Shown here: piece by piece, positions 6,419 through 42,700 of the stretch
Numbering within the stretch: position 1 is the first letter of the stretch
Layout of the letters: each line of letters starts with the position of its first letter
Made by a program: the position numbers and the translations under genes
Notes under the pieces: model-generated
What the model saw: only the letters and a program-made list of their open reading frames with translations
Told to the model about the DNA's origin: nothing
The model's database searches: none
Assembly: GCF_026151205.1 (NCBI RefSeq)
Contig: NC_087079.1
Location: 9,664,635 to 9,724,634, forward strand
Reading direction: 5' to 3'
Length of the DNA stretch: 60,000 nt
Source: Bolinopsis microptera
Lineage: Eukaryota; Ctenophora; Tentaculata; Lobata; Bolinopsidae

Positions 6419-9400
6419 ATGACAGACGAAAAGAAGAAGAGAAGGAAGCGGCCCACGCGGGAGAATTCTATGAACAAGGATAGAAACCAAGTCACAGCGG
6501 CACCACCGCCAGCCGCCCCAAATGCACCAACTGCCCCGGCGGCGCCGCCTGCTCCGACTGCACCCAAAGCACCACCAGCCCCGGCCGTGAGTTGTTCTTT
6601 TTATTTTTTCGTCGTCCTAGTTAGATTTTTTTTTCGAGGACCTAGTTAGATTATTCAGTATGCTGGACAAGTAAAAATTAGCATATAACCATATACATAA
6701 AACAAATTAAATCATACAAAGTACAAACATTTGGTAAAAACTGGTAAATATTTGTCTGAATAAATATGGCAATATGGTCCTAAGTGAGTAAGTGATAGTC
6801 ACGCACAAATAAATTAAAACCTTAATTCGAATCTAATTAATTTGACTGCCACCACAACCCTTTTAAAACTGTAACAATTTGTAAAAATACAAACAAAATC
6901 TTTAACGAAAGAAAACAGCATTCCTTGCTTGACGATGCTATACAAATAACAAGTAACACCGTTTTAAATTGAGCAGCAATTAATTACAGTCTATATCATT
7001 TGACATGTAGCACGGCTACTGAAACGCGCACATAACCGGAAATCAAGGAACACAGCTTCCGGTTCGTGTAATCGTATTACACAATCACAGTTACACGGCC
7101 TTGTCATTATTCGGCCGAGGATTCGGCCTCACTTCTGCACATCAACAACAGGAAGCGGCAGTGTTTTATCTCCGAGAGAATATGTCGTCATGTTGAAAAT
7201 ATCTAGAAGGTTCTGTAGACGGTGAAACTGACAGCCGTCTCAGATAACGCAGACAGAAACAGGAAATATTGCTACATTCTCTGACGTGTCTTATCAAATC
7301 TGCGTCAAAGAAATTACAAGATCAATAAATGAAAATCATGGTCCGTTATAAATCAGCTGTCCGTTATATTATATCAACTGTTGTGTCCAGCTGCATATGT
7401 TCTTAATTGAGGCTGTCAAGACGACAATATCAGTCCAAATTCAAAAATCCCTGCAGAATGGTTGTATTCCTCATCTGTTACCACTGAGACAACAGTTTGT
7501 GAAATGTGACTACAGTCTGTGACTACTGCACGTATAAACTAGCAGCGAACACAATATCTCGTTTAATAGTAAGAGATGCTCGCTCCATCTTTGACTCGAA
7601 GTCCACGTCCCCTACGATCCTAGCCACGTCCTTAATGCACCGCAAAACCTCGTCTAGTCTTGTTATACACCTGGGATTGGAACTGTTTAATATCTTGGCT
7701 CTCAGATTAAACAAAAAGTAGTGCTAAGGTAGTGCTAGATATTTTGCGAAACATTTCGTTCTCTATCGCTATGACAGTGATAAGGGGATATCACGACAGT
7801 TCAAGTGTCGCTACATTCTGGAGATATGAGCTTGCTCAGCAAGTTGGAACACATTCTCATGAAACATAAAAGATCCACGGCTTATTCGCCAGTATCCGAA
7901 TATTGGCTACAATGTTTCAAGCATTAATTAATAGTGTTTGTAATTGTTATGACACGGCTGTTCGTGTCGTGACGCAGACAAGGCCCTACTCAAGGAGCTA
8001 TTTCGATGACCCCCTTATCTCAACATCTACAGGCAACCAAAATGTTTCATTTAACAACTTGTCAGACATCATAATCACCGCTATATTTTCCGTTGACAAC
8101 TTACTGATTTCCAATTTATGATAAATGATAACTTCGTGTTAAATTCCGAAAGATTACGTCACTTACAACCATAGAGTGGTAGAATTGTGACAAACTAAAC
8201 TTGGAAATTATGGCTACCATAAAGTTTCACAACTGTTTGTGACAAATGATTATTAAATTATAAGTGAAAGTGAAATTCCCTTACCTGACGATAGTGCCTT
8301 CGTCCACGTCAGTGTACTGCATGATAGCTTGGAACTCTTCTCCTTTAGCCCACCTGTACACCACTTCCACTAGCCCGAACCTGTTGAAGAGTAGCTTGTC
8401 ACGTGGTATTGTGACGTCACGTTACGTGTACGTATTGACGATATATGACATGTCACGTGGCCTAGTGGTCACGTAATGATATCATGACGTCACGTTGTGT
8501 TATGAAAGCGTCACATAAGCTTATATCTGACAAAAAGTACTTAGTAAAGTATGCATGATTGGAAGATTATCGTTTTCTTCTTTTAATAGGTGAAAGATGA
8601 GTTAAAATCGTCATCCTACGTCATTCACAGACACTCACTTCAAGTTAAAATAACAACGTTTGAGTAGAAATTTCCGAAATTAAGTTAGAACACTTAAGTA
8701 AGCTTTAAACGGCAGGTTTCATACTGCGATAACGTCATACTTTATAAATCATGAGGTCATGGTAAGTATAGTTTGTTTATCAAGTTGAAGCAACAATATT
8801 CTGTGATGATTCCAGGGATAATATCCGGTAGTAGAGACTAGGTAGGACAAGTGAAACTACTGTTTAGGATAGACCTAGGATAGACCACTTGTTCTACCTA
8901 GTCTCTACTACCGGATATTATCCCTGGAATCATTATCTTATCATGAGACTGATAAACAGCGAACCTCTCCAGGATCTCAATATTCTGTGAGTTGCAAAGA
9001 AATTGTAGGACAATGAATCACTATCCATCCCTTTCACGAGAATTATTACTGCCACAAAATTAATTGAAGTTGACAACAGCTAATTATATGTGAACGTATA
9101 AGTAACAATGAAATGTGTGTTCTAGGCGTCGCTGAGACGGCATGATGCTATGCGACTAATAACAGTCGTAACAAAATTTTGAAATAGCTAGCTAGCTGTA
9201 GATATGCGCCTGTTTCCACTCTTACAACTCAGAAAGTGCATTAATATGATAATTTCAACTTTACAATCCTAAAGGCAACTTTAACTGTGCTCAGCTATAC
9301 TTGTTAAATAAGCTCCATTTTAATAGTTTCAACAATATCTAATCTTGTGTGAGTTTTTGACTTTTAATAGAAAATACTTATTATATATATTTTTGAGTAA

Positions 9401-12400
9401 ACATTGGCTGGTACTTCGGGCCGGTCCCCAACAAAAAAAGAGAATTTTCTCTAGCCGAAAGTGATATCATCCAATTCCTCAGAAATGATGTCAACTCTTG
9501 TTGGGGGAAGTGTCATCGATACCTTTACTATTCATTTTTGGGGATTTCTCGTATAAATATCCAACATTTTGAGGGAAATGGCAATGATCTCTTCAATGTT
9601 TTGTGGCAGACAGCAAGTAAGTAAAGTCACGGAAACATACCTGAATTGCTCCTCAAAGTCCGCGTCATTCGGTCTCAGTTTCTCAGCGACCTCAGCTTCA
9701 ACTATCTTGTGAGCCAAAGTTAGGAACTGTTTCTTAGCTGCTTCTAGTTCCGGGGTCAGATCAGGATCACTGCACCTCTTCTGTTGGAATACCTGGCCAT
9801 CGGGGCTTTAACAACTTTTCATTGATTATTTTGAGAAATTCGCAAATTAAATTCGTGTTAGTTAGCATTCGTTATTCTAAGATACAATGAAAAATAACTA
9901 ACCATGCAAGACAGGATGGCAACTATAGCCTCAATTTCAAGGTCTTTGAAGAAGTTATCGAATACCAGCTCTGTGATAACCAGTTCCGAGGTGCTCATTG
10001 CACAGGCTGCTTTCCCTGCAATGTGGTTCTATTATGAAGGATTAATGGTGGGAGAGGCCAGCCGCTTTTTCAATATATATCTTCATATTGATGGCATTTA
10101 ATTTAATTGGTTCACAGTTAAAACCAGTAGATGTAGGACGTTTTTCGAAGATAAGAGGAGTCCGCAATCCGTATGTTTAACTTCTGAAGCAAACCTTTGA
10201 GTTTAAGTTGGTCCTCGTTGCCCAGATACCGGAGTCTCTTTAAGACTCGGACTCGCAATTCAAACTCAGGCATAAACTGAAGAGACTGGTAGGATAGAGA
10301 GTACGCTATACGCTCTAACTCCCTCTTTATCCACATCATCTCGCTGTAATAGTGACACTTGTTATTTGAAATTTGAACACATGTCTATAATCAGACTTCT
10401 CCTTCTGAGAGCAATATTTGATGAAGCTACTTACTTTGAAATCACACAAAGGGGGTGATAGCCGAGGGGGCGAGGAGGGGGGGTGGGTGTTGGGAAGCTA
10501 TTTCTTTATTACCTGGTCTGTTTAAAGTGAGCATCAAACGTGTTACATTTAGAGCAGGAATAGTTAGCCATAGCACTGCGTTGCTTCATTATGTTACCCA
10601 ACAAATCAACTCCGTCCATATCTTTCACTTCATAGTTCAGTTCCGTTGGTTTCTTGTTCTGGAAGATTATTGGTCAAGCTAAGAGTTACGGGCAATACAA
10701 CACAATATTAGTAAAAACCTATTCGAAATTTCTAAAAGCTGTTCCATGCAATGTTTTACACTGAAAACTGTACAGTTATCTTATGACTTACATAGCCGTG
10801 CATCATCTCCCTCGCTAGAGCGTCAATAGGAGTCCTGTCCCAGTTCCTCGGATTGAACCTCATATGTTGCAGGTTCCTCTTGATTGCTTCCATATCTGTA
10901 GTTACCTGTTGCAACACACGTTTTAAATCTCCTTATTTAGAATAACTATCTACTCAATCTTGAGGTTTTTTTGGGGGGGGGGGGGGGGGGGCCAACCATA
11001 TTAAAGTATATTAAAATGTAGGATTTTTCCCGATTTTGACCCGGGGATATACTTCAATATACCTACAATATACTGTAATATATCCCTATCTCCTTGGAGG
11101 CCTACGTCAAAAATTGTTGCCCAAAATAAGCTTGAAATGCAATTCTTAATCGATTCCAAAAAGTTCTTGAAAAAATATTGAAAACTGATGGAGTTATTTC
11201 AATTTTAATGAAGTCATTTTGGCTAGTATTCCGAACCGAGATATTATGTGCAATTTTCCCAATTTTGTTCATGGAGGTCTTTTTACTTAGTATCCACTAT
11301 ATTCAACAAACACTGAGTTATATCTTTCACATAGAGTTAGTCTCATTAAAAAATATTGAAATTTTATCGAATTTGGGCAAAAGCGAATTTGGGTAAAAGC
11401 GTATGCCCAAATATGGGCATATTTTTTAAAGCTCATAGCTCAGCCAATTTTTGACCAATCTGGATGGAAATTTATGTACTAGTCCTAAAACAGGCTTATC
11501 TTGCGAATCTGAGTGAAAAATATAGTTCATCATGTAAATCTTAACGAAGAATATAAATCTTCTAATTGTAGGTATATTAAAGTATATTAAAATGTAGGAT
11601 TTTTTCCGATTTTGACCCGGGGATATACTTTAATATACTTTAATATGGTTGCCCCCCCCCCCCCCCCCCCCCCCCCCTTTTCACGTTTTTGCATCAATTT
11701 TCACGTTCTGAGGAATTAAAAACCCCTTTTACCCACCTTTTGCACAAGAACACATGACAAGTCCAGTAGAGACACATTACACACGGTGAAATCAGGATCA
11801 TCTTGGGAGTCAGGTTTAATAGCGTCACCAACTGATCGGTTGTTTACTCCGGGTGATACTTGCAGTGCTATCACTGTCCTCTCCCACGACTCTTTAGCTG
11901 CAGGGTTAGGGGTTTTAATTGGGGAAACAGACTTGGAAATCTGCTTGACTCCTAACAAAACCAACCTTTTCTGAGAACGAGTTAGTCCGGATTTTGATGC
12001 AGTATTCCAAGTCAAATAATTGGTTGTTGAAACTTATGCTGATGAGAATAAAATAAATAAAAAATATCCCGTTTGCTCACTTGAACTGAGATCCAATCCA
12101 CTACTGTACCCGGTGGAATGAAGTACTATCACTTTTAGTTCCCTGATATCCTTCCTGAGTAGTAATTAAGTGTTAAATGTAAGGTTACCTCACTTTAACA
12201 GGTAAGCATCAAGGCTTGTTGCACTTTCTAGGCGCTAGAAAACAGGGTCGTTCACAGGTCCGTATATAGCCGATTTTGCAGATTTAAGTTAGGGAAAAAC
12301 CAGCGGACCTAGCGGCAATATCGGATAGCTAGTGGAAAATAACGGATGTCCTACGGAAGCTAGCGGATGCCTAGCGGACATCTAACGCGCGCAATTTTGC

Positions 12401-15400
12401 CGCGCAGCGTTATTACCTAGCGGAAGACAGCGGATAGCTAGCGGAAGTTAGCGGGATCTAGCGGTGTACCATTTTAGTTAATAATCGGTCTGCAATCCAT
12501 TTAGCTCAGCTGCAACCATTAGACCTCAAATTTATTCATGTTATGCATAGAATGATTAAACCGCACATGATGTACATTTATACAAAAATATGTTACGTAA
12601 TGTTGTCGATTAATCAACTTTTGAGTTATTTCATAAACAGTGTCATGCGGAGAAGCTGAACTACACTGGTTTGTCACCACCAGTGTTGCAGTATTGTACA
12701 GGTTACGAAACGACCTCAATGCATGTTATAATTCCATGATGCTGTATATTAATATATGGTATTATAATGTAGCGTATTGGTACGTCATCAATTAGATTAC
12801 AGCTCACGATACGTACGTACGTGCGCGTCTATTCTGTTGCGCAACAAACTGAAATATCTTTCTTTTCATATTAGAGGTTTATCGCGTCAGACAACTAACA
12901 CTGCGTGGGACTGTGACTCATATAGCGTTACACATATTTTAGACTGTCATTTAATGCGATATAATTCTAGTTCGTTTATGAGTGCATTGCTTTATGTAAT
13001 TACTGTCGGAGTTGCTGTTTGAGTTTTGGGTAGGGTGACAAGTAAAACAAGTGATTGGATAGCTCCTACCTAAACTATTCTTGGGTTAGTACTGGAGGTG
13101 GTTTTTTTTACTTTTTTTGCTATTGTATCCGACCTCAGTCTTATAATGCTATCGGATGTGACCTTGGTCACGGCTCTTAATATACTGTCCTTATCTGAGG
13201 ACTTATTAAAAAATCGCTGCCTCACTGCTTTCACCAGTTTGTGGGAGGCCTCGCCACCTTGTTCTGACCCGATTCCCATCGACCAACCCAACTTTCGTAA
13301 TTGGGGAATCACGTGGTCTTCAAGCATGTGGATCTTTGGCGGAACAGTCTTGAAGTATTTCCGATATTCTATTAGGAAACCGGCAATTTCCTTGTCCAGC
13401 TCATCGATTGCCTCCTTCGTTAACCTGAATTTGGTGAAGTTAAGACTGATTAAGTGGGTATATTCGATAGCTTACATTTGCAGTACTTTAACTTTGAATA
13501 ATAATGCATAGATATCGTAGATATAGTAAATACCTATTCGTGTTTCCTAAGTTAGTCATTAGTGGACCGTAGATTTTCATCAGTGAGATGACATCTGCTA
13601 TCTCTTTCTTGAGTAGCTTCTGTTCGTCATGCTCAAAGCTGTAGTTGTAACTTTATTATAAACTGAGTATTGGATACTTTAGTATTAATAATTTGAATGG
13701 AAATGTGGACGAAATGTGTACGATTAAACTTTATGTACTCACATTTCTAAAGCCAAAATTTCAATCCACAGCGGAACAAGCTTGTGGTATCGTGTAACGA
13801 GGTTGTGAGCGTCGTTACCGTTCAATGTGCTCCCTCCAAAGTGAGCTTGTGGTGAACAGCCTGATTTAAGGTAATAAGTGTTAAGTTACTTGAATTATGA
13901 TCGTTACAATTCACATAAAATTGGTGACTTATTTAATACTGAAATTAATGCATTATAATATGAATACAAGTGTACTTAGTGACCTATTTTCGAGCAGGCT
14001 TTCTCGTATCTGTACTGATAAGGACCACACGTTACCTCCTCAGGATCAAGTGTACCAGACCTACATGCTTCAACAGATTTGGAGAAGTCTGTGTCTGGCA
14101 AAACAGTTATTCCTTGAAAGGAGGAACCGCTGGCCATGCTTTGGACAACTGCCAAGTCTACCTTTTGACATATCCTCATACCGTTCTTGTAGATGTCCTG
14201 ACCTACTCTCAGATTCTGAAACAACAGTGTTATTTAGTACCTCATGGGATAGTTAATCGAGAAAAAATCTTGTTTTAGATATAGGTTAAATTGTTTGATT
14301 TATCAATTAATACTTACTATGTGGACGATGGGGACCAGTATCCAATCCAGGATTGGGGCATCGTTGTCATTGTTCAACGCATTGTTCAGTTTTGGTTCGT
14401 CGATCACGTTGAAGAACTCCCGTTGAGTTTTCCTATTTAAACCAGTTTTCTGTCGGTTTAATGCGTACAGCTGCTTGGTTCCACCGTAGCATCGTTCCGG
14501 TCTAAATCCTGTAATTGGATAGTAGTCAGAGGGTGAATTGAGATATGGAGAATGTTCGTGGAAACTGATTTAAATAGGAATGAGATGATTTCAAGTTTCT
14601 AACCTCTCCGGGATAGAGGTATCTGGCAGTCAGCCGTGTTTATCCTACAAAAAGGGCAAGCGTGTATGCCTGGTGATACAGGCATACCCAATATTTGCCA
14701 TATTTGCTTCGTGTCTCCACAAAGCCACAAACGAATTTTGTGCTCCTCGTGTTTGTATGTGTAGACATCTAACTCCTTGTTCAAGAATGCCATCAGTTGT
14801 CCTATATTAAACTCTTTGTCAGGACACTCTGAATAAACTAGCAGCAAATGCTTATAATCAGAATTTGCCAGTTTCTGATTTATAACATTTACCGAGATCT
14901 TGGTATTAATAGAATCGGCATCTATAAATACTTTCACCCATATCTGAAATAAATAGCACTGTTATAATGACATTTGGAGCTCCACATTATGTTTAAATTA
15001 ATTGATTTACAACATTGAGCAGCTGCATCAAATTATGGCATACCTTGCCGTCGGTGAACATTTGCGGCTGCAGAAGTTGGTAAAGTTCCAGTTTACTCAT
15101 AACTGTCTTTACCAACGACTGCAGACTAGTGTAGACAACTGGTGTGTCTGCTCTTAGTACACGATCCCCAGCCTTTTTATCTGATTTGCAGTTGGAGTTT
15201 GCCCTGAACTCCATAGGCACTTGTACAACCTCGTATTGTACCTCGTTGAGAGCTTCGAAGCATCTTACACTCTTCTCCGATGCGAATTTCTGGTTCTTCA
15301 AACGTTGACGGAGCACACGCATTTTATGCTCCGTTATATTCGCTGTGATTAAACATTTACATACATGGTATGAGTCAATTTGAAGACAATACTTGGAAAT

Positions 15401-18400
15401 GAGACGAATTAGTATACTATTAATATTTCAATATATGAATCGTATTTACCAGCATTCATAAATTCGATTGTGTCTCCGGAGTCCATCCTTGGTCGCTTGT
15501 TTATGTTGGAGGACTCCGCAACATATTCTTTAGTCTCTTTAGACTCCAACGTCTGGAAGGACGCAGTTTCTAGGCGTCCCACGATATCTTTCAGGTCCAC
15601 GTTGAAATCTTTATGAGCGTTTACCTGAGATCGAGACAGTGAATTTCAGTTCAATTAATTTAAGTAAAATTTGTATTGGGATATTTGGTAGTCTAACAAA
15701 GCCAGATTTTAAGAAATCAATCAATCACTCAATCAACCTGCAGTGACGTTATCTTTCTGTGAGCGTGGTGAAGCTTCCTCCTAACTGCCTGGTCAGGGTT
15801 TTCAACAACCTTTGCAGGTATTTGCGTTCGTACGTAAGTCTGAGGCTTACCCCCGGTCTTAAATGTAAGCACATCCTTATCTACGGCATGGTGTTGTACC
15901 CTTTTCAGAATGTAGCTGAAAGGAAAGTATCATTTAATTATAATTCCTCTACACTGAAGGGAACACTAACTTATGCCAAATCTATAATAATATAACTGTG
16001 TACCTTGCAACTGTCCAGAATTTTTCATCCAGTTTACTCTCTATCGGGGTACTCAAGAACTCTCCTACCGTAACTCCCAATTCGTAGGAAAACTCCCCAT
16101 ATAGTTTAATATGGTTCTTTACAGTTTTCTTTGCTAAGCTATTTGCAGACTTGCAGCGGTTACAGGGACAAGGTTCCTTTTCTGTTTCCATGCTATTTGG
16201 AACGACACATCAATTTTAAATATTAGCTATTTCAGTACATTACACAATACATATTGCAAAGTCACTTTATATTTACAACAAAACAGATGTCACCACTATT
16301 TTCACTGCATGCATTAGAAAACTACAAGTACAAAATATGTAATATGTATATACATTAACAAACCAGATTTACATTTTACAAATACCATTACAAATGTGTA
16401 TGTACAATAATGTTTATTCAAATAAACGTGCATCATATTTCATTACTAAATGATCTAACAGACTGTGTCCTTCTAAATTTGGCCACAGCCATGTTCAGCT
16501 CCTCTTCCTCCTCGTCGCTGAAAATATGTACTGTTAGAACAGTAATTGATTTATACAATGTGTTGAATGCTAAAAAATGATGCACTGATTGGATACTAGT
16601 TCTCATTACCATTGGATTTAACCATAAATGCTACTGTTATTTTGTAATGATGATTCATTCTACTTACTATAACATTCTGAGTCTCTCGTTGAGACAGTCC
16701 CGCTGCTCCTCCATCGCTTTAGCAGCGCTAATCCTATTAGTGAGTTTCCTCTTAAGGATTCTTTTGGCGTTCTGCTTTCGCCCACTCTCCTTTGCTGCTG
16801 TCCGCCTAACAATCTCGTCAAGTTGGAGACGAGTTATTGATCTTCCTTTTCTGTCTGTGAGGAGATCAATTGTCAGTTATCCATACTTGAAATTAATAAA
16901 TTTGTAGAAAAATAACACTACAGCTTTTTATATCTTACCAGCGATGTATTTGTCCACCACATGAGGTAACACTGTGGTGTTCGTCGAGCCCACCGTCGCT
17001 AGGGCATTCGTCATATCGCTGAGAAATATCCCAGTCAACTCTTCAAAATTGTAATTTATTTGAAAGTTTGTTTGTGGTATGCAATACACGTTATAGTTTT
17101 TTTATAAATGAAGCCGAGTCTTACTTTTCATTGACAACCATGATAATGATAATTACCTCCAGATGAGTTTATCTGAATACGACACCTTCAGGGGGTTCGT
17201 TTTCACTCCCTTGAAGACAGATTTCCCATCAAGGAGTGTCTGGTAAGTATTCTTGACGCCACAGAAAAACATTTCAAAATCCACTGTGTGCGGAAATATC
17301 GGCACCTCAATGTCGATGATGGGTGCCAATTGTTCTGAGGTACCCACTCTGATAATATGAACATTCAACATGGTGAGAGCACACATCAGTTTGGAGACTT
17401 ATAAATAGTTTTCATGTCTACGTACATACAATATAACGACTAATGAGAACTGTGTTATTTTAAGTTTGATTCTAGCAAATCCGTACAAATAAAAACTAAC
17501 ATTTCTTGTGGCGGCTGTGGTGTAGGAGTGGATGGGTTAGGTGATCGAGGGGGAGGCGTTGCGGATTCGTTCCGTACTCTGATGATATAAAAATGGTAAC
17601 ACTTATAGACAACAATTTGGCAACTTTTACAAAACTTTCAATTTACATCCACATAACATTTCCTCACCTCCTAAGATATTCAATGTACTCTTCCTGATCT
17701 GGCGGAGGAACTACTGTGGTCGGCGTCATTGTTCTTTTGTACTTCCTTTTAGACGGTCTAGAGGGAAAAATACAGTTCACTAATGAAGTATTAATGAACG
17801 GACTAATTTACTGATTTGATTATATGTTTTATCAGGAGTTTATGCTAAATTTTACTCACATCGATGTTTCAAGTGGTTCGTTATCTTCAATTTTTTTCAT
17901 AAGCTCTTTCGTTATTTTATCCATGAAAGACATTCTAGATTGTAGAAAGTTACTAACAACTTATTTTATTCAAGCACAACGAAATTATTTCAAATTCTCT
18001 AAACTGGTACAAAAGTTTTAAAAGTTCTGCACATGCAACGCAGGGACTTATCCGACCAAGTTTTTGTAAACTATCACGTAGAGTGGGGAAATTAAAAAGC
18101 GGAATAAAAATCTAACTCTAAGTTAACGATAAACTGCTACAGAAATCAAAAGTTCGAACACCGAGTCTAGGAAATAGCTGTGAACCAAATAAACAGAATG
18201 GCACCTGTGCATGATGTGTTGTTTTTATACCGTTCTAGGATGCCTCCGCAAACTTTCGCTCCTTTGTTATGCACGTGTTAGTATCTAGGATGCCTCCGCA
18301 AACTTTTGCTCCTTTGTAATGCACGTGTTAGTATTATTTATTTATTTCTTTATTTATTGAGAGCTAGGCTCGCTGAGAGATTCTTTAGTTGTTTACTCCG

Positions 18401-21400
18401 CAATCATTTCTCGCGACGCGATATAAAATTCTTTTGCTTGACTTGCGCGGCTTACCCAAATATATTAGTATTCAAAACTTGATACAATAAATAGGCTTTA
18501 AAGCTAAAATAGTTGTTGAATTAATTTTTTGATATTGCATTTTGTAGAAGAATTAAACAATGTTTTTTTTCCCCTGAATTTATGAGTATTGTAAAATATA
18601 TGTTTAAAATGAACACCGCTATTCGCCGCTAGTTTGCGCGCGTCGTCCGCTTTACTCCGCTAGCCATCCGCTAGGTAAAAATGCAGCATTTTAGCGCGTC
18701 TCCGCTAGGCGCACGCCATCTTCCGCTAGTCATCCGCTAGTTTCCGATATATATCCGCTATAATCCGATAGCTGACCGCTGGTTTTTCCCTAACTTAAAT
18801 CAGGCAATACGGACCTGTGCGTTATAAAGGCTTAAAGGAAATGAATCATAATAATGAGAAAATGTAACAAAACGATGGAATCTAAGCTGTTCTGAGGAAT
18901 GTATAGGTAATATAACTAGGGTAACTAACTTGTCATCAACATTCGGATTAACGATAGTAGCCAGATGAAAGGGAAACTTTGGAGTGCTGATGATTACAAC
19001 CCTTCCCGGATGCAATGATTTACTCGCTTTTGCTGTGTTCAGTATACGGTGTTTGAAATCAGTCTCCAGTTCCATCTGAAAGGAAATGAGGCTTTAAAGA
19101 TATAAAACTGCATCAGTCTTACGATGTTTTGATTTTCTGACTAGAGAAGCAGATTGTATATAAGAAGGCTTCTAGCTTTATGAATCAGCGATAAGTGTTA
19201 AGTTTTCACCATGATTATCCCGTCCATGTAATACTGCTCTATGTTTTTGCAGACTTGACAGGATACAGGCTTAAGTCCTTCTAACTTCTTTTCTAACCCC
19301 TTCCTGTCACGTTTATAGTCACGCGCCTTCACCTGATGTGATGTCAGTAATTTAGTTTAACTAAATTACTGTAATACACAAAAAAACGGAACTAAATTGT
19401 AAGACGCGAAGTTACAAAATTGATCATTGAAATACATTTGACAGTGAAACTTTGCACGTTAAACCGAACAGACGAAGTCATCGAATTTTAACGGTTCGAA
19501 ATTACAATTCCACTCTCCTTAATTCCTCTCAAAATCACACAATATGTACTTCCTTATCAAACGCACTTACCTGCTCTTCGTATTCAGCGAAACTTCTTTT
19601 TAACAACTCTTCAACTTTCAGATCTTTACCCTTTAGAACACTCAGTATCATGTTGTATGTAGGTTTAAATTGCGAAGACAGATCTATCGCTTTGCCCTGA
19701 ATAATCAAGATTTAGGTGTTATTTCTTTCCACCTGTGACTTATGTCGTAATTTTGGAGGTCTCCCAAAACTTATGCAACTGGGGAAAGTTTGAGATCCAA
19801 AAAGACGTAAAACTCGTGCGTGCGCGCGGCAATGTCAATATTACAAGCACCGCGTCTGACGCGAAATATTTAAGAAGACCCTTTTGCGAAACACACGTCA
19901 GAATGACTCACCTGAACCATGCTGATAAGATCTGAGTAGTCAGGCAATTTTCCTTTGCACAATATAATAACTGTCCCTGTCTCATCTTTACCACGCCTGC
20001 CTGCTCTTCCAGCCATCTGTATGTACTCGCTTGTTGTAAGCAATCTTTTGCAGTTGCCATCAAACTTTTCAGTAGCATCAAATACCACAGTACGGGTAGG
20101 CATATTGATACCCATAGCAAATGTCTCCGTTGCTAGCAACAGTTTTATCAGACCCTTTTCAAATAACATTTCAGTGACTTCTTTCATTAAGGGCAGCACG
20201 CCTGAGTGATGCACTGCTATACCTGTAAATATTACAGTGATCAACTGAAAGCGCTTTTGGGATGAAATAGCTCCTTTCTTAGCCTCTACCATCCAGTGGG
20301 GACAATGTGTGGGTTACATTTGGAAAGTCATAATAAATACCATACATTATACATACCTCTTATCATGAGCTCTTTAAGGAACACTATCTGTGGTAGGTCC
20401 CGATCAGTACCCTTCAATCTTCCCACACACTTTGTAATGAACTCTCTGATAAGCCCCTTTTCCTTGTTAATGGTCAGGTCCAACGCTGTCAAACCTTCTG
20501 CTAATTCATTGATTCTTGCTTTAGATAAGATGAAGATAACACAAGGAAGGAGGTTTTCTCGTTCCAGCATCCGCACAAAAGAGAGAATTGTGTTCCGTTC
20601 TGCTTGCTTGCCAGGCCGTTGGTTGCCGTCTTTCTTTGTCTTTTTACGTGCTGCCAGAGCTGACTGCAGAGAAAGGAACAATGTTTTCAATTTCCGGAAA
20701 GTTTATGTGGTACTAGATGATTTAAAGAATAATATTTAAGCTGCTTAACTTTAAATGGGAAATGTTTTAAATAATAAAATACCTTAGCCTTCTCAAACTC
20801 CGAAGTTTTAAAGTTCTTATCGTTAGCCGCAATAATCTTAAACAGTTCCTTGCTTGTCTTATCACTGTTCCCAGTGTAAAGATGATGCTCCAATGGTACT
20901 GGTCGACGTGGTGTCTTAACCACATACACCTGTTTACGTTTAGTGTTCCCGACCCACTCTGCGAAGTCTGTGACGTTAGCTACAGTTGCGGAAAGGAGGA
21001 TCACTGACACGTGTTCTGGGAGCATGATCAGAACTTCTTCCCAGACTACTCCACGTTCTATATCGTTTATATAGTGCACCTGTCAGATTAAACTGTTAGA
21101 TTATAAAGTGTTATCTGTTTGATGGTCTGTAATATTATGTAATTAGTATTTGACCTCGACATTAAAGGATTTCCCGACACAAAGTTACAATATAAGACTA
21201 TAATAAAAATCTTAAAGCCCGAACATATACCTCATCGAATATGACCCACTCAAGGTCTCTTGTAATGTCAGAACCGTTATACAGCATTGATCTCAATATC
21301 TCGGTAGTCATGATAAGACACGATGCTTTGGTGTTTATCTGTATATCTCCCGTTAACAGGCCTACTTCTCCGAACTTCTCCTTAAAGTCCCTGTAGTATT

Positions 21401-24400
21401 AAAAGTTTAATTACCCTAATCACGCCACTCTTAGGTGGTAAAACTGATTATTTAAAATTGAAGGGACTAAGCCTTTAAGTGAGCACTGATAAAATCATAG
21501 AAGTATAAATCAAGAGGCTTGCATATAATAAACATATTGACACGGGTGCAGAGTTGAGTCTGTACGGAACCTAGTAGTTTCAGTTCCTTGTTTAACTTGC
21601 CGTACAGCAAGGACATCCACTACTTTAGCCCGGCGAGGCACATATCTCACTCTACAACTCCATGTTCTAAACCAGGGGTCTATTTATTCATACTTTAAGC
21701 ACACCTCAAACTTTCTTTTGCTGAGAATATAAACTATGTATCATTTGTGATGTAGTATGCATTGCAACAGTATTTGAAGTGATCAGTACCTGAACTTCTG
21801 GTTGGAAAGAGCTTTGATAGGTGCTGTGTAGATCACCTTAGTCATGTGATGGTTGGACAGGGCGATAGCGTACTCAGCTACCACAGTTTTACCTGCTGAA
21901 GTGTGAGCCGCCACCATCACGTTATCGTGGGAGTGTAGCTTTAAAATAGCCTGGGATAAATGTTATTTTTATTAGCTTGTTGCAAGAGTTATTCCAAGCT
22001 TCTTGAAAGTTTTGTTCTGTGCAAGTTATATTTGAACGTTTAAAGCCAGAAGTCAGACCGTTATCTGAAAGTAATCACAGATTAATGCTGATTTCCAGGA
22101 TCGAACTCCAACACTAATAGATTAGATTACACAGCATTATGTGTATCTACCTGTTTCTGGAAGGGGTCTAACTCGAAAGGGAACTGATAAGCGAGATTTC
22201 CAATCTGTGTGTAGAAGTCAGGTACCTCCGACTCAGCATCAAGCTCAATAGCCCACTGGAACTTGCCACCTGGTGCTCCTGATGTTTCATCCTCATCTGT
22301 ATCACTGTCATCTGAAACATCACCTGTTTATAACCTTTAACACCACACATCATATAATACTGATTCTCAAAGCTTTCGTAGATACAATGATAGGGGGGAG
22401 CCAAGGGGTATTGAAGTAATTTTGGGGTATTTTGGGGAATGTCTTAGTGGAATGTGGAAATCCCCCATAATAGAGTCCCCCATTATACCCCTTTGCTTCC
22501 CCCAATGATAGCACATCCGAATAAATACCACAGTACTGATAATTAATCTGGCTACCTTCTGTAACTGATTTATGTTTCGTGCTGTCTTTCTTTCTGCTGA
22601 TCTGGTTTTCTGCTCTAATATAGCTTCATCTAACTTCGTAATGAGCTCCTGAAGATTTAAAAAAACGTGTAAAGGTGTAACTATTTTATAATCTTCTCCA
22701 TCCACCATTTAGCACTAAACAATAAATCAACTAAAAGTAAAACGGTTCCTGTTTATCATCTGTACCGTACCTGAATGTTCTTAGGTTCGTCTTCAATTGT
22801 AGCTAGATTGTCTTGTACAAACTCCATACCAGTCTCAAATCCAGGTGGAATTTTGAGGAGATTGTTCACGAAATCAACAGTTTCTTCAACGTCCTGAACA
22901 TAGTAAAAGATTACCATTCGACGGGATGAACCGTATTATAAAATCATCGAATTATGTACCAATTATTTGAGCTTTAAAACTACTTGATCAGTCAATTAAC
23001 TATGTGATTAAGATGTCAATTAGCTAAGATAACGATTAACAGCAAAGTACCCACCTCTTCCTCCTCCTCCTCACTGTCACTAAAACCCCCTGGCCAAAAC
23101 GACCGCCCCATCGCGGACCCTTTAGCATCCCCACTCTCAGGTGCTGGGGCACGTGACACAAAACTGCGGACTGATTTATCTGTGTTTTCCTCGACATTCT
23201 TCAGTACCTCTTTGTGGTACAGAAAGTCGCCCGTGCGCTGATCACGTACACACTCCAATGTGAAGGGGTCATTGTGCGCAGGCGCGTTTAGCAAGGATGT
23301 GAAGTCAGGGGTGAACTTGCCGATGTAAGCGTCCCGTTTGAAGGAAGGGAGAGATTCTACATCTGTGGTGTGATGTGTAACTATGTCCTCCCAGTGTTGC
23401 AGTGAGAATAAAGGATTCCAACCATTCCCTGATTCTGACATCATACACGTTACACTACAATACCTACATTGGATTGAAATTAAATAAATTATATCTTTAT
23501 AACAAAATCACATGAGTCATTCCAAGAAGTTTTAATTTAACATCAAATATATAGTAGTAGTAGTAAATCTTTCAAAGTACGAAATATCTCTTTAAAAGAG
23601 CATCCTAGGCACCTTATAGATATCAAAACGCATAAAAAAGAAAACAAAAACATCAACCATCTTCTAACTTCTTCCACTCCTCCCTATCTAAAGCTAAAAA
23701 TCTAAGGTCTTCGAAATCAGTCAAATTCTTAAGTCTAATATCAAGATTTCTACTAGTCAAGTCTTTTCTAATAACATCTAATAAGTTTAAACATGGTCTA
23801 CCCCGTCTCCCTTCCATAAAAATATCAGAATTTATAGCAAATAACATAGAGGTGTATGCTGGTGAGTCTTCCTGTCCTCTTAAGATATGTCCTAACATTC
23901 TCCATCGAAACTTAGAGACTCTCACAGACAAGGGAGTGACATAACAACGAGCATAGAGTGCCTCATTAGAAATAACCCCAGTAGGCCATCTGATGTTGAG
24001 GATTCTTCGGAGGTGTTTGCGATGAGCAATATCAAGTTCATTCAACGAAGCTAGTGGTGCAGCCCAGGAGTTGCAGTTGTAGAGTAGAATAGAGACTACT
24101 TGTGCCTCGTAGATTTTGATCTTCCTTTGGACTGAAATCTTGCTCTTCATCCAAACTTTCTGAAATTTACTAAAGGCAACATTACCAAGGAATATTCGAT
24201 TCTTGATATCCTTAACAGTGCACATCAACGATCCTAAAGTTTTGTTAGAGCGCCACTCTTCATCACCTCTATACACTTTTCCAACGATCACCTTGCGTTT
24301 AACAGTGGGTTTAGGATCTGCTAAATAAAAATGGACAAATTCAGTCTTGGAAGAATTGATATGAAGGTCCCACTGCTGGAATATATCTTTAGCGATAGGA

Positions 24401-27400
24401 AGCATTTCTTTGAGTGGAGCAAGTTCAGTGTTATTAAAGTCAATATCATCAGAATATCCTGTTTCGAGTGGCATGAATTCTTCTGAGATAGGAGGATTAG
24501 GGATTGGATGATTCACTGGGTAAGGTGTTGATGATACTTGGGAGAGTACAGATCTGAGGTGAATAAGTGCAGCGGCTTCAACAACAGTAAATAGATTACC
24601 TGATAGTGCATCTCCTTGAAATGCTCCAGTTGTGCTTTGGAACTCAATTGATACAGTATTATTGACTTTTACTTTCAACACTGTGTTTGATAGTAGGAGC
24701 CGTACCATCCTAATTTCATCACTAGTACAGCCAGCATCTTCAAGAACATTGAGTACTGTTTCTCTGCTGATGGTGTCAAAGGCACTTGACATGTCTATAC
24801 TCATTCTGTGGTAGCTCCAATGCTTTCTAAGTACCACTGAGGTTAGCATACGTTGAGACCAAATTATATCGCCACAACTTCTACCTCTCTTGTAAGCACT
24901 TTGTGTAGGACCGGTGTACTGATCTAGCTTGCCTTGGATACGTTTTAGGGTAATCATTGACAGTAATTTTCTGGAGCAGTTTGAGAGGGTGAGAGGTCTG
25001 ATGTTTGCTGCTGGACCAAGTGGTTTCTTAGGCTTTTGGAGTGGAGTAATGTTGCCTTTTCCAATAGATGTTATGGTGGTGTTTGTTTCAAATGCGGTAT
25101 TTATACAGTCTGCATATTTCTGAAATACACTTCTGTTTGCATACTTAATCAATTCACTTGGGATATCATCAGGCCCAGTGGCTCTACCATTCTTCAAAGC
25201 TTTAGCAGCTATCTCAACTTCAATAGCAGTAATAGGGTCAGCGAGAGGACTAGGTTGATCAAAGAAAGTGTCAATAGGCTCAACTGTATGTTTTGCAGTG
25301 AACTTCTCTTCAAAGTGGTTCTTTAGTGTAGCAGCTTTTCCAGTGTCTGTACCTATGAAGTTAGAGTTTTCATCATGCACACTTATGGTTGGAGCACGTT
25401 TGATACCTGCTAGTTGGCGAGTGGCTGCAAAGTATGCTCTAGAACTATCAGTTTCGTTTATCTCTTCAGCAAGAGTGTCTGCATGCTCTTCTTGAAGGAG
25501 CTTGATTCTCTTACGAGTGTCATTTTGAATACGATTGATTTTGGTACGTATAACTGATCTATCTTCAGAGGTGTTGTTCTGATTGAGTAGAGCTTGTAGA
25601 ACTTTCTTTTCATCAGACATCTCTCGAATTTCAAGGTCATTACAAAAGTTTTTAGGGCGTTTCCTAGGAAGGTATCCAATACTAACCTCAGCAGCTTTAT
25701 GTACATTGTGAAACAAACTATTCATTTCTTCCTCAGGGTTAGGATTAACAGGGCTGTCTGTTAGAATATCATTCAATGTGTTGTTGTAATGCATTTTAGC
25801 AGCAGGATTACTGACAAGGGTTGTGATATCAAAATGCATTTTAGGTTTCTGTTTGGGGAAGACAAGGTGAGCGTCACTGAAGTTGAAACGTGTAATAACA
25901 ATTTTGTGATCAGATTTAACAAGAGTACCCCCGTAACTTCGAGAATTCACTAAAAGTTTCTTCAATCGACTGCTACATAGGACATAGTCAATTTGAGAGT
26001 AGTAGGGCAAAGTGCGATGTGAGTTTTTAGGAGCTGAGTAGTCTTTCATAAAACCAATTCTTGTTGTTATATGACGGACAGGGTGCTGGAAGCTAGTGTT
26101 GCAAGCAAAAAGTTTTTTATCAACAAGAAAATTAAGAAGATGCTCTCCATTTGAATTCCTCTTTCCAGACCCATACATACCCATAAAGTCATTATACCCG
26201 AAAACAATATCTGAATGAGACAATTTACCGAGTCGAGAGTTGAAATCTCCAAGAATATATAAGTCCCAACTTGATGGGATATCAACAGCTTTGCCAAGAA
26301 ACTTGTAGAAATAATCACGTCTCTGCGGATACTTATCACAATTTACTTGAGTGTGTCCATAGGCATTGATAACACGGCAAAGTCTTGGTTTACCTGATTT
26401 ACTTGGTATCTCAAGATCTAGATAAGCAACCCTGTCACTGATACTGTTGTAACACTTGATGTAGTTGGTATAGACTGAATTTACAAGAAAACCAATACCT
26501 GCTTGCCACTTATTGTCAAATTGCTGAAAGTTTATGAAGCGATATTTGTGTGATTTCCCATCATCATCTGTAAAATGCAAAACTGAATCCTCAAAGTGAC
26601 GACATTTAGTTTCTTGCACAGCGAGAATGTCTATTTTACGATAATAGCAATCTCTCAAAAGTTCATCCCGTTTAACTGGAGAAGTAATACCCAGGACATT
26701 AAAAGTAGCTAGAGTGAAGATTAGTGCTGTGCTTCTTCTTTTGCGTTCTGATGTAGATAATCTACTCTGTACGTTGCCGCCAGAGCATCTGCCGAAATCA
26801 CTCGAACAGGCCATCCTAAAAATATATAACATATTACATATTAATACAAATCGGATAAGAGTGATGTTTAAATTTCAATTATACTGTACACTTTGTTCTT
26901 ATTCGCTGTTTCATGTGTTTATATCCAAATCGAATCTTTATAAAGATTATTTTTCAGGCCCCCTCCGCTCCAGCCTCAACTCCTGTAACCCCTCTACCAA
27001 GTAAGAATAGTTTGTACAATTTTCGTTTCTTATGTGTGTTTTCCATGATTTTCTTAATATTTGTTCTTCAATGATTTACTGATCCAGTGCTGCTTACTGT
27101 CTCATGAAATATCTAGTGTATGTTGTAAAACCTTTGTTGTAGCACCAGTTATTTCTGCATGGCTCTGCATGGGGGATGGTAACCTGATCTTGCATGGATA
27201 ATGGATATGCAAATATGGAACGAAAATCTTATGTAGATCACAAAAACCGCTATCAAATCGTTTAAGAAGATATTTAATTTGAGGATCAAGGAAGCGGGTA
27301 TGATTTGAACATCCCAACATATTCATCGCTGTGCAGAGCCGGGAATCATTAACTGGTGCTACGATATGTTGAATAACCTGTTAATGAATGATTTTTACCA

Positions 27401-39596: not shown

Positions 39597-39709
39597 TGTA
39601 ATGTATTATTGATTATAATATGACGATGTATATTTCTTATTACTAATCAATCTATTTCAGCCTCTATTTAGAGGTCTAGCAAGACAGTCTATTTCATTGG
39701 TCCATAACA
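39597..39709 (+). repeat. 5' LTR (113 bp)
   Basis: Starts TGTAATGTATTATTGATTAT and ends GGTCCATAACA; identical to the 3' LTR. Very short for an LTR; no canonical AATAAA is visible in it. Confidence 0.95.
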
Positions 39710-39710
39710 T

Positions 39711-39720
39711 TGGCGACGAG
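39711..39720 (+). other. tRNA-Ser primer-binding site
   Basis: TGGCGACGAG lies one base after the 5' LTR and is complementary to the CCA-tailed 3' end of animal tRNA-Ser(GCU). It marks the minus-strand primer site. Confidence 0.75.
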
Positions 39721-39721
39721 T

Positions 39722-42700
39722 ATGACAAAATCCTACCCCTATCCTCTGACCGCTACAGTCAGCGCGCCGGAAGACTGGTTCGAGCAGTACACATGGTTTC
39801 TCAAGTCCCAAAAATCCTATCCGGTTGAACCGGAACCGTTAGTAGAGAATCCGAATGAAGCGCAACGAACCGCGCATGCACAACTGTTAGCGGAATATAA
39901 TCAGCTATGTCAAACGATCAAACCTCACTTCTTAACGAGCATTGATCCAGAAATCTTTTCCCTACTTACGTCTTTAGCATCTCCAAATGACGTCAACGAA
40001 CTTACATATTTCGAGATGAAGACAATTCTCATAAATCACATGGTCCCGAAACCGACTGTTTTGGCAGAGCGATTCAGATTCTACAAATGCCACCAAAAGC
40101 AGTCGGAGAAAACAGCAGACTTTGTTGCGAGGTTAAAAAAACTGGCAGTCAAATGCAAGTTTACAGACTTCGGCAGTTCAATGTTAGATCAATTTATAAT
40201 GGGAATTGTTAACTCAGAAGCACAGGAGTTGCTATTGGAGGAAGATTTCGAACAACTGACACTAGAGAGAGCGTATAGAAAAGTGGTGGCAATGGACAGA
40301 TCTAAATCAGAGGCTGCAATGATTAAAAACTCCCAGCAAACTGTACATAAGGTACAGATCAGCAAGAAGTCTCAAGGGAAATCTTCACAGGGAAGTTCCA
40401 ATCAGGAGACAAGATGCAATAAATGCAAACTCAAATCGCATGCAACCAAGGACTGCTATACTAAATGTTTCAACTGTGGTGAATTGTATCATACTGCTAA
40501 GGACTGCCGTAAGAAGACGAAACGCAAGTCCTGGAAACAGAGTGGTAAATCTACACATCATGTATCAACAGACTGCAACAACAGCGATTCAAACAGCGAT
40601 TCAAACCAGGACACAGAACAGTTTGTGAGTCGAAATATTTACTATTGTGAATTGTCGGAGAAATCCGTAAGTTTAGATGACCAGTTAAATGTTTTGTTTC
40701 AAAAATCTTCAAATTTGGGCAACAACCTGACAAGTATTGATGATTCTAAAATTCAGGATGATGATAATAGTGTTCTGTATGGTAGTAATTTGCATGATGA
40801 TTCGCATGTTGATTTGCATGACAATAACATTATTTTGCATGATAACAGGTTTTTGCATGATAACACTGTTTACTTCGATAACGTGAACTTTTTGCGTGAT
40901 TCTAGACCCCTGATCAAGGTTTGGATCAATCGCCGAGAGTGTCTGATGGAGTTTGACAGTGGATCAAGTGTATCTGTGTGCAGTAGAGAGATGCTGAAGA
41001 AAGCTGGTGTGGAGTTTAAGTTGAGAAGTAGTGATAGGCAACTGCGTGTGGCGAATGGTCAATACCAGCAGGTATGCGGTAAAGCAGTTGTGGAAGTGGC
41101 GATAAACAACCAGATTGTGAAAGGGTTGGAACTGTATGTGGTGGATAATCACTTTCCAGCACTGTTTGGACGCTCTTGGATTACAGAGTTTTGTGGTGAA
41201 AACTGGTTAGAAAAGTTAGTAACGAGAACACAGGGCCAAACAGCAGAAGTTGGACAGAGACCAACAAAAGAGGTTGAACTGGAGAGAACTGATGGAAACT
41301 GTAGCGCACACGAAGGAGAATTTCCTGGGACTCAAGAAGGAGTACGAACAGTGAACATGTTGGGAGTTATGGAATCAGAACCAGTGACAGATACCGCCAA
41401 GAGAAAGTTTAAAACTGGACAACGATGTGAGGACGAAGAGACTGCTCCTAGAACACATCAGTTGAGAAATTTTGTTAGTGTGGACGATGAAACAGATCCT
41501 GGAACACCAACAAAGATACGGACAGTACAAGAGATAATGTCTAGTGACATCTTCAAAGATGAGTTAGGTCTGGTAAAGAACTATAAAGTGCAACTCCAAT
41601 TGAAGGAGGGAAGCAGACCTGTCACGCAGAAATCAAGAGCAGTACCTTTTGCTATTAAAGACTTACTGGAAAAGGAGTTAGACAACATGGTGAAACAAGG
41701 AATTTTGAAGAAAGTCAAAGAGAGCCCATGGGGAACTCCAGTTATGCCAGTGAAAAAAGGAGACGGTGTGAGAATATGTGGAGACTTTAAAGCAGTCAAC
41801 AAACTATTGGAAATGAAACATCACCCGTTACCAACTACAGAAGAATGTTTTGCAAGCGTTTCGGGAGGAGAAAAGTTCTCAGTCATAGACATAAAACAAG
41901 CGTACAATAACGTGGAGCTATCAACAGAAGATCAACTCATCACGACAATGAATACGCATATGGGACAGTATGTGTGGACGCGCTTACCGTATGGAATAAA
42001 TAGCAGCGCAGCAATCTTTCAGAATCTGATGGACAATGTACTACGGGGTATACCTATGGTTTGCTGTAGGATAGACGACATTTTAATATCAGGAAAGAAC
42101 GATAAAGAGCACTTAGATAATCTGAATAAAGTTGTGAGAAGACTGGAAGCAAACGGTTTCAGATGCAGACTGAATAAATCTAAGCTGATGCATGAAGAAG
42201 TGATTTATCTAGGACACAAGGTGAACAAGCATGGTATGTCACCAGTCAACAGCAAGATAGACGATCTGTTAAAAGTACAGGCACCTGAAAATGTGAAAAA
42301 TTTAGTAGCATTTCTGGGAGCAGTTGGGTATTATCGCAAGTATCTACCAGATTTGTCGACAATAATCGCTCCATTGGACGAGTTGAGAAAGACTGAAGTT
42401 GAATGGCGATGGACAAAGACTGAACAGAAAGCCTTCGAAGAATTAAAGAAATTACTTTGTTCTGACAGAGTATTGACGTTCTACAACCCGCTGAAACGTT
42501 TGAAGCTGGATACAGACGCAAGCAGCGTGGGTTTGGGAGCTGTATTGTCACACATAGATGATGATGGAACAAATGAACGTCCGGTTGAATTTATTTCAAG
42601 GACATTATCGAATGCTGAGAAAAAATATAGCCAGATTGACAAAGAAGCTTTAGGGATAGTCTGGGCTATAAAAAGGTTTCATATGTATCTGTATGGAAGA

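Follow-up and report, generated by a model that had tools for sequence, protein, structure and literature searches.

The window analysed here, a stretch of 60,000 nucleotides from contig NC_087079.1 of the ctenophore Bolinopsis microptera, contains a transposon of 6,567 bp (12253–18819) that is flanked on both sides by CGTT and carries two predicted genes on the minus strand, a transposase gene and a second gene that we call gene 1. A preliminary description had proposed a complete element with matched termini and a CGTT duplication at this place, and its coordinates proved exact to the base. The element is made up as follows:

12249–12252, no strand: left target-site duplication, CGTT
12253–12265, plus strand: left terminus, CACAGGTCCGTAT (27 exact genome matches, control 0)
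12270–12306, plus strand: left arm of the extended terminal inverted repeat (37 nt, 86% complementary to 18776–18812)
12302–12464, plus strand: left subterminal array of 9 AGCGG in a single orientation
13070–16191, minus strand: transposase gene, 726 amino acids (aa), exons 16191–16004, 15915–15738, 15624–15450, 15342–15044, 14943–14604, 14508–14318, 14215–13984, 13860–13743, 13638–13534 and 13424–13070
16413–16418, minus strand: AATAAA, a possible polyadenylation signal, beginning 15 bp past the gene 1 stop
16433–17933, minus strand: gene 1, 261 aa, exons 17933–17860, 17757–17668, 17578–17501, 17348–17157, 17018–16939, 16854–16668 and 16517–16433
16670–16852, minus strand: Lys/Arg-rich stretch in gene 1 exon 6, predicted as a single long helix (predicted local distance difference test, pLDDT, of 95.2 from a single sequence)
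18234–18333, plus strand: tandem duplication of a 50-bp unit, 96% identical, upstream of gene 1
18616–18780, minus strand: right subterminal array of 10 CCGCT (AGCGG on the minus strand), all inward
18776–18812, minus strand: right arm of the extended terminal inverted repeat
18807–18819, minus strand: right terminus, CACAGGTCCGTAT on the minus strand
18820–18823, no strand: right target-site duplication, CGTT

Both ends of the element start with the same 13-mer, CACAGGTCCGTAT, behind which the imperfect inverted repeat follows. Within the outer 240 bp per end the motif AGCGG points inward 19 times and outward not once, 1,000 dinucleotide shuffles averaging 1.6 occurrences and never exceeding 6, and the inner 5.97 kb contain it 5 times; the subterminal arrays reported in the preliminary description are thereby borne out. 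In front of gene 1 the window copy has the 50-bp unit, a possible part of a promoter, twice, and the start of the unit was found once in another copy, L036, in an exact 15-base search.

To place the element among its relatives, we use family A for the family of the window element and families B and C for related ones, all within a searched genome of 264.65 Mb. The 13-mer CACAGGTCCGTAT has 27 exact matches in this genome, 25 of them outside the window, and the reversed control has 0. Seven opposed pairs, the window element included, account for 14 of these 27 matches, and the remaining 13 found no partner by exact ends. The preliminary description had named other copies with other 4-bp duplications as a check on the element, and these exist: six of the seven pairs are flanked by perfect 4-bp duplications that all differ from one another (CGTT, CTGG, GTAC, TGTG, GTAG and GATA), and the seventh, L039, has GGAC/TGAC, in which three of four aligned bases are equal. 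Family B ends (CACAGTGGAAAAT) occur at 32 genome places with up to two mismatches, and all seven pairs that were chosen by eye out of these places have perfect 4-bp duplications, so that exact duplications flank 13 of the 14 paired copies of families A and B together. The arrays are likewise common to the family, with 9–19 inward and 0–1 outward AGCGG in the outer 250 bp of all seven paired family A copies, against a mean of 0.13 and a maximum of 4 when the remainder of the window was sampled at random 2,000 times.

Several copies have kept their ends and lost parts of their genes. Copy L036 (2,857 bp) has its own TGTG duplication and is 98.7% identical over 2.3 kb; its gene 1 comprises exons 1–6 and just the beginning of exon 7, and the transposase is missing. 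Copy L029 retains its ends together with transposase exons 1–3, and L039 its ends together with 3′ pieces of the transposase. At two further places, L005 and L006 (G000:C2:15664388 and 15670097), the 13-mer end is followed by an unrelated repeat with TGTAGCGCGATGCACTACTGGGTCGCGC; because their left flanks are identical over 20 bases, these are probably a duplicated stretch. A subfamily of B, termed B2 (L032, L033, L035 and others), has about 10 transposase places with near-equal protein scores and an end, CACAGTGGAAAATGTTGGCC, with twelve exact copies in the genome, to which no opposite end was found; three B2 copies that we compared are 99.6–100% alike over most shared stretches and 83–98% alike in the 5′ part.

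The gene models, predicted from the DNA, agree with the two spliced genes proposed earlier. The transposase model is free of stops across its 10 exons, which are joined by 9 GT-AG introns, and gene 1 is open across 7 exons to its stop; the acceptor of gene 1 exon 5, ...TTTCTCAG|CGATATG, keeps the frame and is common to copy L028. In a Pfam-A scan the transposase matched DUF1280 at 31.2 bits, above the cut-off of 25, which upholds the assignment to a CMC-like transposase, and DUF7515 at 17.3 bits, under the cut-off of 27. Neither PF02992 (Transposase_21, CACTA) nor PF06869 (DUF1258, Mirage) was among the Pfam matches listed at E-values of up to 10, a range in which the HMMER filters remove most matches above 0.1, and an NCBIfam scan gave no match. 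RAG1 and Transib chains are present in the PDB, and none was matched in the PDB sequences at E-values of up to 10, either by the transposase or by a profile of three transposase sequences. Mirage was rejected for want of DUF1258 among the listed matches, RAG1/Transib, at the level of sequence, for want of a PDB match, and membership of CACTA on the Pfam results and the length of the duplication. An AlphaFold2 model of transposase exon 5 alone reached a pLDDT of 33.9 and was discarded.

In the alignment of the family A, B and C transposases, which comprises three sequences, those of B and C being models assembled by eye, the residues D288, D357, C376-x2-C379, H456, H641-x4-H646 and E663/E667 are invariant, the last E having been chosen by eye; they lie in the blocks FID-D, C-DTK, C-x2-C, a His after P-x-x, H-x4-H and EQGGE. 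Between transposase copies the proportion of nonsynonymous differences (pN) was below that of synonymous differences (pS) in six comparisons, with ratios of 0.06–0.38. According to passages in PMC3985635, DUF1280 represents the animal Chapaev transposases and DUF1258 Mirage, and Transposase_21 clusters with CACTA. Chapaev, which was first published in Repbase Reports (as cited in PMC4411706), is characterized in parts of PMC4079192 by 3–4-bp duplications, CAC/GTG ends and the motifs C(2)C, LH and H(4)H. The window element has 5′-CAC ... GTG-3′ termini, its family and family B have duplications of 4 bp, and the family A transposase combines C(2)C and H(4)H with the DDE residues. On the strength of the DUF1280 match, the CAC/GTG ends, the 4-bp duplication and the C(2)C and H(4)H motifs, Chapaev is the most likely branch within CMC.

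Two genome-wide searches bear on the transposase. A six-frame DUF1280 search, which detects single exons only, gave one match, outside the window, at L060 7902–8123 (G000:C3:20135699–20135878; 35.3 bits); it marks a further transposase-like frame about 9 kb from gene 1 fragments of families A and C. The same kind of search with PF02992 gave no match, but 14 control genomes were also blank, making this result uninformative.

Gene 1 changes mostly silently between copies. Values of pN/pS were 0.237/0.815 (L028), 0.234/0.861 (L040), 0.115/0.411 (L041), 0.165/0.488 (L042) and 0.006/0.019 (L036), so that pN was below pS in all five comparisons; silent sites are saturated in those with L028 and L040. 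The calculation chose codons in a way that favours identity, which biases the values downward for gene 1 and the transposase alike, and stops occur in several of the compared copies. The protein matched no Pfam family above its cut-off, and the long helix predicted for exon 6 weakly suggests a coiled-coil or basic-helix protein.

Matches to gene 1 were found in the genome (30 for the family A protein, 20 for family C and 21 for family B), and the best of the 30 family A matches are more element copies or fragments, as judged from the part of the match places that was inspected. For a count of linkage to the transposase, 9 of the 71 gene 1 rows (5 A, 3 C and 1 B, all with E-values of at least 0.004) were left out and all 71 transposase matches were taken, these having been obtained with the window protein as the only query, which may miss distant copies. 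Grouping gave 40 gene 1 places (9 A, 11 C and 20 B), of which 21 (4 A, 3 C and 14 B) are followed downstream, at a distance of up to 8 kb, by a transposase match. The transposase lies in sense in all 21 and in the opposite orientation in 0; one has an extra transposase piece upstream. A predicted second gene of this kind thus recurs in at least three related families of the genome, upstream of and in sense with the transposase.

By sequence, gene 1 is barely recognizable across these families. A relationship between the family A and family C versions is probable: a single-comparison profile search gave an E-value of 2.5e-4, at only 43% probability, 5 of 20,000 shuffles scored as high, and both proteins have an FFCGV...IW block with an intron after IW. 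The subterminal motifs also differ, with AGCGG in family A, ATAATCGT in B1 (L043/L044) and GCGATAATCGC in B2 (L033), AGCGG being the motif to which the shuffle test was applied. Different motifs beside strongly diverged versions of gene 1 would fit matched partners, without proving them.

Together, these observations make it probable that the window element is a structurally complete two-gene, Chapaev-type (CMC/DUF1280) cut-and-paste transposon whose gene 1 would act at the arrays. From the DDE motifs and the duplications we infer that the transposase would cut at the CAC/GTG ends to release the element and insert it with a 4-bp stagger. The gene 1 protein, with its proline-rich and acidic parts and its long basic helix, may bind or bridge the inward AGCGG repeats and so help the transposase to assemble or to escape silencing, by analogy with TNPA and TNPD in plant En/Spm, and copies that have kept their ends and lost gene parts would have been moved in trans. 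In that plant system TNPA and TNPD are both described as essential for transposition, with TNPD stabilizing TNPA on the DNA (PMC1636069, in part).

A number of observations weigh against this interpretation. The Cys-rich N terminus of the transposase resembles the Transpos_assoc domain of CACTA (20.2 bits, under the cut-off of 27.7), and the Pfam scan of the transposase gave no RING or RAG1 family. At the place of the Chapaev LH motif the window transposase has VH, with LH in families B and C and the histidine, H456, invariant, and the family B transposase matches DUF1280 at 19.9 bits, under the cut-off. As to gene 1, no downstream transposase match was found at 19 of the 40 places, and the 21 linked places do not count as independent, many of them having been copied from each other recently. 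When 4,119 frames were searched together with reversed decoys, no frame outside family A ranked above the family C gene 1, yet its E-value was only 0.29, and one shuffle scored 13.8 bits compared with 10.8 for this protein. Profile comparison revealed no relation of the family B gene 1 to that of A or C, and 649 of 20,000 shuffles scored as well as the real sequence.

The N-terminal match raises the question of whether this is instead a true animal CACTA/EnSpm element with TNPD- and TNPA-like genes. Subterminal repeat arrays are a trait of CACTA, and here they stand beside a second gene, as such an element would have them. On the other hand, DUF1280 passes its cut-off and PF02992 is unlisted among the matches, the ends read CACAG rather than CACTA, and the duplications are of 4 bp, where EnSpm has 3 bp (PMC12730594, in part); we therefore consider a CACTA/EnSpm element very improbable. 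The arrangement of the genes allows another reading, in which both arise from one transcript by alternative splicing, like tnpA and tnpD in En/Spm. They share a strand, and only 241 bp separate the gene 1 stop from the transposase ATG, but each gene has its own ATG, its own stop and a complete splice chain, and AATAAA begins shortly past the gene 1 stop, so that a single transcript seems unlikely.

Gene 1 might alternatively be a captured host gene or a chance passenger without any role in transposition. Copies without gene 1 exist, its protein reaches the cut-off of no Pfam family, and any role rests on inference; against this, its copies differ mostly by silent changes, its position and orientation are equal in three families, and its best genome matches, as far as the places were inspected, are element copies or fragments, which together render a passenger improbable. 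A role as regulator, either a repressor or an anti-silencing factor and not a co-factor of cut-and-paste transposition, deserves more weight, and we regard it as possible if rather doubtful. Promoter-regulating roles are described for TNPA (in passages of PMC1636069), whereas the dense arrays at both ends would suggest a role at the ends, and L036, which has gene 1 without a transposase, has lost most of the last gene 1 exon and so cannot serve as a clear case of a regulator being kept. We retain, as the probable interpretation, a Chapaev-type transposon with gene 1 acting at the arrays.

The element had also been placed inside an intron of SKIC2, a housekeeping gene, and the surrounding frames support a position within this gene:

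19541–20313, minus strand: SKIC2 frames upstream of the element (19870–20313 and 19541–19711)
7526–10384, minus strand: SKIC2 frames downstream of the element (10124–10384 and 7526–7723)

Upstream, frame 19870–20313 (minus strand) matches Helicase SKI2W with an E-value of 2.2e-41, its top match being Superkiller complex protein 2 (1.5e-41), and frame 19541–19711 (minus strand) matches SKI2W at 3e-6. Downstream, SKI2W is matched by frame 10124–10384 (minus strand) at 3.4e-5 and by frame 7526–7723 (minus strand) at 1.2e-8, MTR4 being a slightly better match to the latter. Because SKI2W matches lie on both flanks, we place the element between the stretches for SKI2W residues 733–776 and 1028–1079. 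The exact intron borders stay unplaced, since the presumed adjoining SKIC2 exon, in open reading frame 18815–19093, gave no PDB match below an E-value of 0.12. Both element genes, on the minus strand, are in sense relative to SKIC2. The G+C content of the window is 37–39%, and an Rfam scan of it found nothing reaching the gathering level. The window also contains a long interspersed nuclear element (LINE)-type retroelement near the SKIC2 frames (23653–26874, minus strand), with an open frame of 1,073 aa encoding an Exo_endo_phos endonuclease and a reverse transcriptase, and a long terminal repeat (LTR)-type retroelement (39680–44323, plus strand), with an open frame of 1,547 aa encoding an aspartyl protease, reverse transcriptase, RNase H and integrase.

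The preliminary description had suggested that the combination of features might be undescribed. In itself the window element is a member of a known superfamily, and CAC ends with a 4-bp duplication are to be expected, being ordinary for Chapaev (PMC4079192, in part). The unusual part is the second gene beside a Chapaev transposase, an arrangement best known from plant CACTA elements. Neither a two-gene Chapaev nor a ctenophore Chapaev was noticed in searches of openly licensed papers, Repbase and Dfam lying outside the scope of these searches. We tentatively raise the possibility, somewhat less probable than its converse, that this Chapaev lineage is two-component, with a family-specific, fast-evolving gene 1 matched to its own subterminal repeat and needed by the transposase. 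If this were true, the pairing of a transposase with an end-binding partner would be recurrent, or ancestral, in the clade of CACTA (TNPD/TNPA) and RAG1/RAG2; according to part of PMC3985635, RAG1, the antibody recombinase, falls into one cluster with the DUF1280/Chapaev transposases. Given different subterminal motifs beside strongly diverged versions of gene 1, partner recognition is directly testable.

Compared with known systems, the window element resembles Chapaev most closely, in its DUF1280 match above the cut-off, its ends, its duplication and its C(2)C and H(4)H motifs. It differs in having a second gene and long subterminal arrays, neither of which is mentioned in the Chapaev passages of PMC4079192, PMC4411706 and PMC3985635, in having VH for LH, and in an N terminus that resembles the CACTA-associated domain, Chapaevs being described with an N-terminal Chapa zinc domain and, in some of them, RING fingers (PMC4411706, in part). 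SmTRC1 and the other animal TRC elements are likewise CACTA-related elements of animals, and SmTRC1 was first noticed in an intron, but TRC elements have 2-bp duplications, CCC ends and a Transposase_21 domain (from passages of PMC1636069). With plant CACTA/En-Spm (TNPD and TNPA) the element shares two proteins, subterminal arrays, a multi-exon transposase and the weak Transpos_assoc match; it differs in that Transposase_21 is unmatched, the duplication is of 4 rather than 3 bp, and gene 1 falls in no Pfam family above cut-off. This last point also separates it from Transib and RAG1-RAG2, as do the lack of a PDB chain match for the transposase and the length of the duplication, which is 5 bp in Transib and 4 bp here. 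What it shares with these is membership of a wide clade with C(2)C and H(3–4)H (PMC12730594, in part), within which RAG1 clusters with DUF1280 (PMC3985635, in part), and, as in RAG1-RAG2, the pairing of a transposase with a second protein.

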